A DNA stretch of 39,679 nucleotides from positions 1 through 39,679 of the forward strand of contig JAAFIA010000008.1 of NCBI GenBank assembly GCA_013298545.1. The letters are read 5' to 3'. This document shows, one piece after another, positions 3,092 to 8,827 of the stretch. The position numbers and the translations under genes were made by a program. Within the stretch, counting starts at the first letter, position 1. Every line of letters begins with the position of its first letter. This stretch comes from Bacteroidota bacterium. GTDB taxonomy: Bacteria > Bacteroidota > Bacteroidia > Palsa-965. The notes under the pieces are model-generated. The model saw only the letters and a list, made by a program, of their open reading frames with translations. It ran no database searches and had not been told where the DNA came from.

Positions 3092-3121
3092 TTGATTTTA
3101 AGGAAAAAAGATGTACTTTTG
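3092..3121 (+). promoter_or_regulatory. Promoter of the Abi leader RNA and gene
   Basis: TTG at 3092-3094, 19 bases, then TACTTTTG at 3114-3121, which is a full match to the Bacteroidota TTG / TAnnTTTG arrangement. Predicted transcription start is around 3126, which leaves a leader of about 60 bases before the Abi start codon. Confidence 0.65.
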
Positions 3122-3125
3122 TAGC

Positions 3126-3177
3126 AACATATCCACCCCGCTTCTCGTTAGATCAGCGCGCTCAGGGTGGATTTTTT
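3126..3177 (+). ncRNA. Candidate abiF-type structured leader RNA (hairpin plus oligo-U)
   Basis: Between the promoter and the Abi start codon an 8-bp perfect stem forms: ATCCACCC at 3131-3138 with GGGTGGAT at 3165-3172. An inner helix CGCT (3139-3142) with AGCG (3155-3158) is possible. The stem runs directly into six T residues (3172-3177), so it would serve as an intrinsic terminator and release an RNA of about 50 bases, with read-through giving the Abi mRNA. A conserved RNA (the abiF motif) has been described upstream of abiF genes, and RNA antitoxins for AbiF HEPN toxins have been reported. That this is such an RNA is inference; a plain attenuator is the alternative. Confidence 0.5.
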
Positions 3178-3185
3178 ATGCCTAT

Positions 3186-4082
3186 ATGTCAAAGATTCCT
3201 TACACAAAGCCTCCACTTTCGTATTCAGATCAAATTAAGCAACTTCAATCGAGAGGATTAATTATACTAGACGAACAAGCGGCTAGCGATGTTTTGGAGC
3301 ATGTGAGTTATTATCGGCTTAGTGGTTATTGGAATCTGTTCCTTGATTTATCTCAAAAGGATCGATTTATTGGTGGTACTTCTTTCGACGATATTTATAC
3401 TGTGTATGCTTTTGATCAGCAACTAAGACAACTTATTCAGGCGGCATTAGGTGAATTAGAAATTGCCATTCGGGCAAAATTAATTTATTTTTTATCTCAT
3501 ACTCATGGTCCTTTTTGGCTTGAAAATTCGCATTTATTCATTGATCCTTTAAAATTCGCAAATACGCTTCATAAGCTCGGACAAGAATATGGAAGAAGTG
3601 ATGCTGAGTTTATTCAATCCTTTAGAAAGAAATATGCGCATCACTTACCACCAAGTTGGATTGCACTTGAAGTAACTACATTTGGAAGTCTGTCTGTTCT
3701 TTATTCCAATTTAAAAAATGGACGCACCAAGCGTGATATCGCGAATCATTTTGGCGTGAGTGATCCAGTATTTGCATCTTGGTTGCACACGCTCACCTAT
3801 ATACGCAATGTATGCGCGCATCATGCTCGTTTTTGGAACCGACAAATACGAATCACGCCTCAAAAGCCATTATCTATTTCAAATACCTGGTTAACTAATT
3901 TGAAGGTCAGCAACAAGACACCTTATTATAGTTTAGCGATCATTGCTTATCTGTTGCAAACGGCAAACAAAAAAAATACATTTTCAAAGAATCTTAGGGC
4001 ACTACTTGCAGATTTCCCGACTGTGTCTGTTTTTTCGATGGGTTTCCCTTCCAATTGGAGCGATGAGGAGCTTTTTGCCTGA
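3186..4082 (+). CDS. AbiF/AbiD-type abortive infection protein (Abi_2, HEPN RNase)
   Basis: 298 aa. The Abi_2 family hallmarks are visible: the N-terminal YYRLSGYW block (42-49), the central ELEIAIRAKL helix (90-99) and the HEPN ribonuclease motif Rx4H (Arg207-Asn-Val-Cys-Ala-His212) followed by HARFWNR. HEPN proteins of this group are RNA-cleaving toxins that arrest growth on phage infection. The ATG at 3186 is used because it begins with a normal MSKIPYTKPPLSYSDQI; a frame start at 3111 would translate through the promoter element and the leader hairpin. The coding sequence looks more AT-rich than its neighbours (many TTA, ATA and AAT codons), which suggests acquisition by transfer. It stands alone between an unrelated muramidase (divergent) and a permease with its own promoter. 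No protein antitoxin gene is adjacent, in line with RNA-based control. Confidence 0.88.
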   Translation: MSKIPYTKPPLSYSDQIKQLQSRGLIILDEQAASDVLEHVSYYRLSGYWNLFLDLSQKDRFIGGTSFDDIYTVYAFDQQLRQLIQAALGELEIAIRAKLIYFLSHTHGPFWLENSHLFIDPLKFANTLHKLGQEYGRSDAEFIQSFRKKYAHHLPPSWIALEVTTFGSLSVLYSNLKNGRTKRDIANHFGVSDPVFASWLHTLTYIRNVCAHHARFWNRQIRITPQKPLSISNTWLTNLKVSNKTPYYSLAIIAYLLQTANKKNTFSKNLRALLADFPTVSVFSMGFPSNWSDEELFA

Positions 4083-8420: not shown

Positions 8421-8827
8421 GGATTCCAAGTGCCAATGCACAAGTTCCAAGTTCCAGATTTCAAGTTCCAGATTCCAAGTTCCCAAGTTCCAATTCCCAA
8501 GTTCCAAGCTCCAAGTTCCAGATTCCAAGTTCCAATTCCCAAGTTCCAGATTCCAAGTTCCAATTCCCAAGTTCCAGATTCCAAGTTCCAATTCCCAAGT
8601 TCCAGATTCCAAGTTCCAAGTTCCAGATTCCAAGTTCCAATTCCCAAGTTCCAAGCTCCAAGTTCCAGATTCCAAGTTCCAATTCCCAAGTTCCAGATTC
8701 CAAGTTCCAATTCCCAAGTTCCAGATTCCAAGTTCCAATTCCCAAGTTCCAGATTTCAAGTTTCTGATTCCAAAGCTCAAGTTCCTATGCTCATGTGCAA
8801 CGTTCCAGATTTAAACGCTCAAGTGCA
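8421..8827. repeat. Heptanucleotide tandem array (58 units, 7-bp period)
   Basis: The stretch splits into 7-base units in one register from 8421 to 8827, broken only by a single extra C at 8484. In the core (8442-8757) nearly every other unit is AAGTTCC; the units between are AGATTCC, AATTCCC or, twice, AAGCTCC, giving 14- and 28-bp higher-order periods. Both edges decay gradually while keeping the 7-bp register (AAGTGCC, AATGCAC on the left; TATGCTC, ATGTGCA, ACGTTCC, AAGTGCA on the right). A 124-bp block is exactly duplicated (8485-8608 and 8632-8755, offset 147 bp = 21 units). Because 7 is not a multiple of 3 and the units carry no stop codons, several frames appear open; none is taken as a gene. 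The array lies between two minus-strand genes and may be transcribed with them. Confidence 0.95.

Follow-up and report, generated by a model that had tools for sequence, protein, structure and literature searches.

In C. difficile, the noncoding RNA RCd22 carries abiF motifs and mostly ends at a terminator before abiF (PMC12373285). It neutralises AbiF in cis and in trans via direct binding (PMC12373285). In PbAbiF, loss of R210/H215 inactivates the protein (PMC12373285), and the bulge nucleotides C32 and U38 of its RNA, PbAbiFr, inhibit the RNase (PMC12737573). For lactococcal AbiD1, a 50-b RNA ending just before the gene is the only transcript that can be seen from its promoter (PMC2661086). 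Phage PhiTE evades ToxIN by way of a pseudo-ToxI RNA, a phage-borne mimic (PMC3475682), and the genome of cyanophage S-CREM1 contains an abiF sRNA (RF03085, 51.6 bits; PMC9964418). According to a title cited in PMC12737573, lactococcal phage sk1 carries DNA protecting phage 712 from AbiF.

A 39,679-nucleotide stretch of DNA from a Bacteroidota bacterium (hereafter the window; contig 133 of a 4.5 Mb assembly with 154 contigs) was compared with these systems; its promoter style and its relatives fit this phylum. The locus under study is very probably a two-part toxin-antitoxin (TA) cassette, in which an RNA antitoxin would also terminate its own transcript and read-through would make the toxin.

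An Abi_2 toxin gene preceded by a structured RNA

The order at the locus is a Bacteroidota promoter, a ~52-nt RNA (3126-3177), and an Abi_2/AbiF HEPN gene that starts at 3186. The features are as follows, all on the plus strand.

3092..3121, plus: Bacteroidota-type promoter, with TTG at 3092-3094, a 19-nt spacer, and TACTTTTG at 3114-3121
3126..3177, plus: antitoxin-type RNA, subtype A of the abiF-like RNAs (covariance model R1, 78.3 bits)
Within 3126..3177, 5' of P1, plus: AACAT leader of the RNA
3131-3138 with 3165-3172, plus: stem P1, 8 perfect bp, ATCCACCC with GGGTGGAT (from sequence)
3139-3141 with 3156-3158, plus: stem P2 inside P1, 3 bp, CGC with GCG (from sequence)
3142-3155, plus: apical loop, 14 nt
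3159..3164, plus: single-stranded bulge CGCTCA, 6 nt, proposed HEPN active-site inhibitor
3165..3177, plus: 3' arm of P1 and six T, an intrinsic terminator from the RNA's own stem (from sequence)
3172-3177, plus: U tail, six T, overlapping the last letter of P1
3186..4082, plus: Abi_2/AbiF-type HEPN ribonuclease toxin, 298 aa (PF07751, E=5.7e-55), catalytic R207-N-V-C-A-H212

A preliminary description of this DNA had claimed a full TTG/TAnnTTTG promoter, an 8-bp perfect stem ending in six T, an Abi_2 start codon 8 bases further on, and an Rx4H HEPN RNase motif (Arg207-His212). All of these were confirmed, with the ATG at 3186 lying 8 nt after the T run; P2 and the CGCTCA bulge within P1 had been missed. 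The longest open frame at the locus begins at 3111, a coding start that was rejected because homologues begin at the equivalent of 3186.

Besides the PF07751 (Abi_2) profile, the PADLOC AbiD model matches the window toxin (E=3.6e-77). Among solved structures, PDB 8vz6 is the nearest (E=4.8e-63); this is PbAbiF (PMC12737573), and alignment to it places R207/H212 on the PbAbiF catalytic pair R210/H215. The protein is thus an Abi_2 protein with the HEPN Rx4H motif of AbiF/Abi_2 TA systems. The RNA is likewise of the AbiF/Abi_2 kind, being structured, on the same strand, and directly upstream of the toxin gene, with its own promoter and a terminator before the gene. With its two stems, 14-nt loop, and 6-nt bulge, it is more than a bare terminator.

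When the fold of the single sequence was compared with shuffles, the result was mildly significant (z -1.90), so the lone sequence is no proof of a structured RNA. A generic terminator scan of the window did not detect the RNA hairpin because the loop is too large. Comparison across homologues, with upstream DNA taken from genus, class, and phylum genomes and from a GTDB scan, lifts the structure far above chance. The same RNA architecture recurs ahead of about 50 homologous toxins in the sample, and TAnnTTTG occurs 9–12 nt before P1 at 24 of 52 homologous loci, compared with 1.7% in shuffles. Covariation in the stem among Abi_2 homologues had been named beforehand as a check, and it was found: across 13 gapless subtype A loci all 11 pairs are kept (100%), five of them with changes on both sides. 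The covariation score was reached by none of 500 shuffles, and slid pairings of the subtype A RNA collapse in this test. Pooling host and viral subtype A RNAs gave a score of 0.503, compared with 0.185 when shuffled. Outside the stems, the T-run is retained in bacterial subtype A copies, and the CGCTCA bulge is invariant apart from one C/T position.

RNA subtypes and toxin clades

The search with Rfam RF03085 (abiF), proposed in the preliminary description as a check of the window RNA, failed: neither the window (up to E=10) nor its own genome gave a match. The window RNA therefore lies below the RF03085 gathering threshold of 37 bits, and the model misses it because it does not cover its subtype. 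Some homologues are matched (57.4 bits for L006 and 51.5 bits for L016), and a relative with a subtype B RNA reaches 25.6 bits. On a tree of 58 toxins, those with subtype A RNAs form one clade of 16 (support 98), and the subtype A RNA requires one change compared with a shuffled mean of 14.1. The RNA subtype marks one toxin clade.

Covariance model R1, built from subtype A RNAs, was run on 395 class genomes and gave 17 matches of at least 30 bits. Eleven are directly before an Abi_2 match, two precede eroded Abi_2 remnants (L079 and L083), and four are orphans (L084, L089, L091, and L092). The orphans, from four class genomes, show that the link between RNA and toxin is not universal. Weaker matches, under about 30 bits (in G306, G260, G386, and G378), were inspected and put down to chance. 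At the window locus, the flanking NamZ and FtsX-like genes are adjacent without the module in 6/6 congeners, so the two parts of the module were gained, or lost, together. Like the parts, their order, the covariation, and the match of subtype to clade, this is shown by the sequences themselves.

Several variants of the arrangement were seen. A deep Abi_2 lineage of five toxins (L043-L047) has no recognisable RNA upstream. At L033, L036, and L040 a distinct RNA precedes Abi_2, with both stems merged into an uninterrupted helix of ~11 bp and no bulge. Tandem pairs of different abiF-type RNAs are present before one toxin gene at L025, L032, and L034, and before an hsdR-like gene at L091. The orphan at L089 (1501-1552, genome G062) is of subtype B and lies near a CRISPR array with, by eye, cas1/cas2-like genes. 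L015 has an RNA with an additional hairpin in its apical loop and an intact Abi_2 downstream.

Since Abi_2 occurs twice more in the window's own genome, the window module could have a different cellular target or function. At one of these further copies (L010; G000:C122, 45755-46690, minus strand), an intact Abi_2 lies downstream of an RNA whose apical loop likewise contains an additional hairpin. The other (L011; G000:C89, about 50588-51608) has an intact subtype B RNA, and a perfect tandem duplication of 61 bp interrupts its toxin frame; this duplication may be an assembly artefact or may be reversible. Elsewhere in the window, 8445-8773 is a tandem array with a 14-bp unit, TTCCAAGTTCCAGA, in ~24 copies.

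Toxin-free RNAs in phages and a plasmid

IMG/VR was scanned with exact patterns for three RNA subtypes, yielding 14 viral contigs with subtype A, 72 with subtype B, and 29 with RF03085-like RNAs, or 115 in total. These patterns were built from host RNAs, so that divergent viral RNAs are missed and the conservation of viral loops is partly by construction. Letter-reversed control patterns for subtype B and the RF03085-like RNAs had 0 matches in IMG/VR. PF07751 was found in 3 of the 115 whole viral records (L100, L127, and L195) and in none of the other 112, which are often fragments in which the absence of Abi_2 is no proof in any single case. Searches of the viral contigs with the window toxin and PbAbiF proteins as queries found no relatives.

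Two complete isolate genomes settle that phages with an AbiF-type RNA but no toxin exist: Acinetobacter phage Acj61 (RF03085, 58.0 bits) and Roseobacter phage CRP-143 (RF03085, 50.8 bits), both without Abi_2. Isolate phages were found by blastn with the RF03085-like consensus only; the subtype A and B consensus RNAs had no blastn match among isolated phages. Phage sk1, searched without a position for its protective fragment, had no hit to RF03085 up to E=5 and none to the descriptors that was convincing. The toxin-free viral copies are a conserved antitoxin RNA in phage genomes without toxin, as is characteristic of a phage-borne antitoxin mimic, and are located as follows.

L098-L111 and L116-L216; NC_014661 77195-77235; OR420748 21012-21055: toxin-free AbiF-type RNAs in phage genomes, proposed anti-AbiF decoys

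Among 10 distinct toxin-free subtype A RNAs, pairing persists at 49 of 50 outer P1 pairs that the search pattern did not demand. Five or more stem pairs can form in 71/72 subtype B and 21/29 RF03085-like viral copies, compared with 4–5% at random places; the eight weaker RF03085-like copies may be chance or shifted. The RNA starts -3 to 15 nt from the 3' end of a same-strand tRNA in 29 of 115 contigs (L099, L105, L142, and L157, for example), where 0.34 would be expected. Genes for a portal (L103, L119, and L173), tape measure (L103), baseplate (L105), terminase (L107), and endolysin (L101) occur on RNA-bearing contigs, and these virion and lysis genes confirm several of them as phage. In the tRNA-embedded copies L099 and L110 the stem and bulge are kept and the full U-tail is lost, which indicates a role of the RNA itself that is separate from termination. 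Plasmid pPP10 of Persicobacter psychrovividus (L219) carries two toxin-free subtype A RNAs flanking a GIY-YIG nuclease gene.

As antitoxin RNAs without toxin, kept folded in phage genomes, the viral copies are most readily explained as phage anti-AbiF decoys that would keep the host toxin neutralised, comparable to the pseudo-ToxI of PhiTE. We consider it fairly probable that toxin-free AbiF-type antitoxin RNAs are widespread in phages, often in tRNA clusters, and act as anti-defence factors during infection, and that the subtype predicts the AbiF clade defeated. Alternatively, these RNAs could be decayed modules, against which the kept stems and the position in tRNA arrays argue, or could take part in phage gene control. 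A literature search that left many journals outside its reach returned no paper claiming phage-borne anti-AbiF decoy RNAs.

Mechanism, alternatives, and comparison with known systems

In the mechanism that we propose for the window, one promoter would produce a short structured RNA of ~52 nt, whose outer stem P1 would double as antitoxin fold and intrinsic terminator. Most transcripts would end before the toxin gene, leaving the RNA in excess, and occasional read-through would yield the Abi_2/AbiF HEPN ribonuclease. The RNA would bind the toxin and block its active site, probably via the bulge CGCUCA, which appears to occupy the place equivalent to the inhibitory bulge of PbAbiFr. If the RNA were lost during phage attack, the released RNase would arrest growth. 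Neutralisation by direct RNA binding is known for relatives (PMC12373285, PMC12737573) and putative for the window pair, and inhibition, toxicity, and phage defence of the window module are likewise predicted from characterised relatives.

The hairpin could instead be a mere attenuator or intrinsic terminator lowering toxin expression, with an RNA inert in trans: the stem ends in six T 8 nt before the start codon, and AbiD1 and AbiF leaders do terminate transcription (PMC2661086, PMC12373285). We regard this as very unlikely, because the 14-nt loop and 6-nt bulge, needless for a terminator, are nearly invariant in subtype A, and because toxin-free viral copies retain their outer stem pairs, some in tRNA arrays without a full U-tail. 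In addition, other subtypes have a separate downstream terminator (L064, L070, and L073), and RCd22 works in trans (PMC12373285). A riboswitch-like sensor of phage infection, for example through binding of a phage protein, would make the RNA mainly a switch of toxin expression and neutralisation secondary. Such control has been proposed for RCd22 (PMC12373285), and phage Orf1 activates translation of abiD1 mRNA (PMC2661086), but if the RNA did no more than control a downstream gene, its toxin-free copies in phages and plasmids would be difficult to account for, and we judge this explanation unlikely.

The preliminary description had called the roughly 50-base RNA an antitoxin or guide-like partner. 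AbiF has been proposed as the ancestor of Cas13 (PMC12737573), so the RNA could be a crRNA forerunner steering the HEPN nuclease to targets. This is extremely improbable, since the RNA is single copy with no array (one strong R1 match in the window) and has no variable segment: within subtype A only the stem and a few loop letters vary, the loop and bulge are otherwise constant, the stem changes are compensatory only, and the variable spacer of a CRISPR/Cas13 guide is absent. The antitoxin half of that description is strongly supported by covariation, the match of subtype to clade, and the characterised relatives, and the same evidence strongly supports its suggestion that termination and read-through set the RNA-to-toxin ratio (PMC12373285, PMC2661086).

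The antitoxin reading extends a recently characterised class of RNA antitoxin, which has been suggested to foreshadow Cas13, to subtypes unseen by the public model. Because RNA subtype is tied to toxin clade, cognate pairs become predictable from sequence. The viral copies suggest that phages fight AbiF with small RNA decoys beside tRNA genes, an idea testable with a ~50-nt insert.

As in the type III TA system ToxIN, an RNA antitoxin would precede the toxin gene with a terminator between them. ToxI consists of repeats in tandem and its partner ToxN is no HEPN protein, whereas the window RNA is single and non-repeated, so the tandem repeats of a ToxIN-like type III antitoxin are absent. The S-CREM1 sRNA differs in that it was catalogued as a single sRNA, with neither an antitoxin nor an anti-defence role put forward (PMC9964418), and in that Rfam mostly fails to recognise the subtypes found here. 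AbiD1 has nearly the layout of the window, with a 50-b transcript that halts at a terminator before the gene and read-through to the toxin (PMC2661086); work on its 5' leader, however, treated it as the target of phage Orf1 and not as an antitoxin. The closest likeness is to AbiF/AbiFr (PbAbiF and C. difficile AbiF/RCd22), which share an Abi_2 HEPN toxin with identical catalytic residues, a small structured same-strand RNA just upstream, a terminator between RNA and gene, and a stem-loop with a single-stranded bulge. The window RNA differs from theirs in lying outside RF03085, in an apical loop of 14 nt compared with 11, in a bulge of CGCUCA compared with CAAAUC, and in having one motif where RCd22 has two, and its outer stem itself serves as the terminator.
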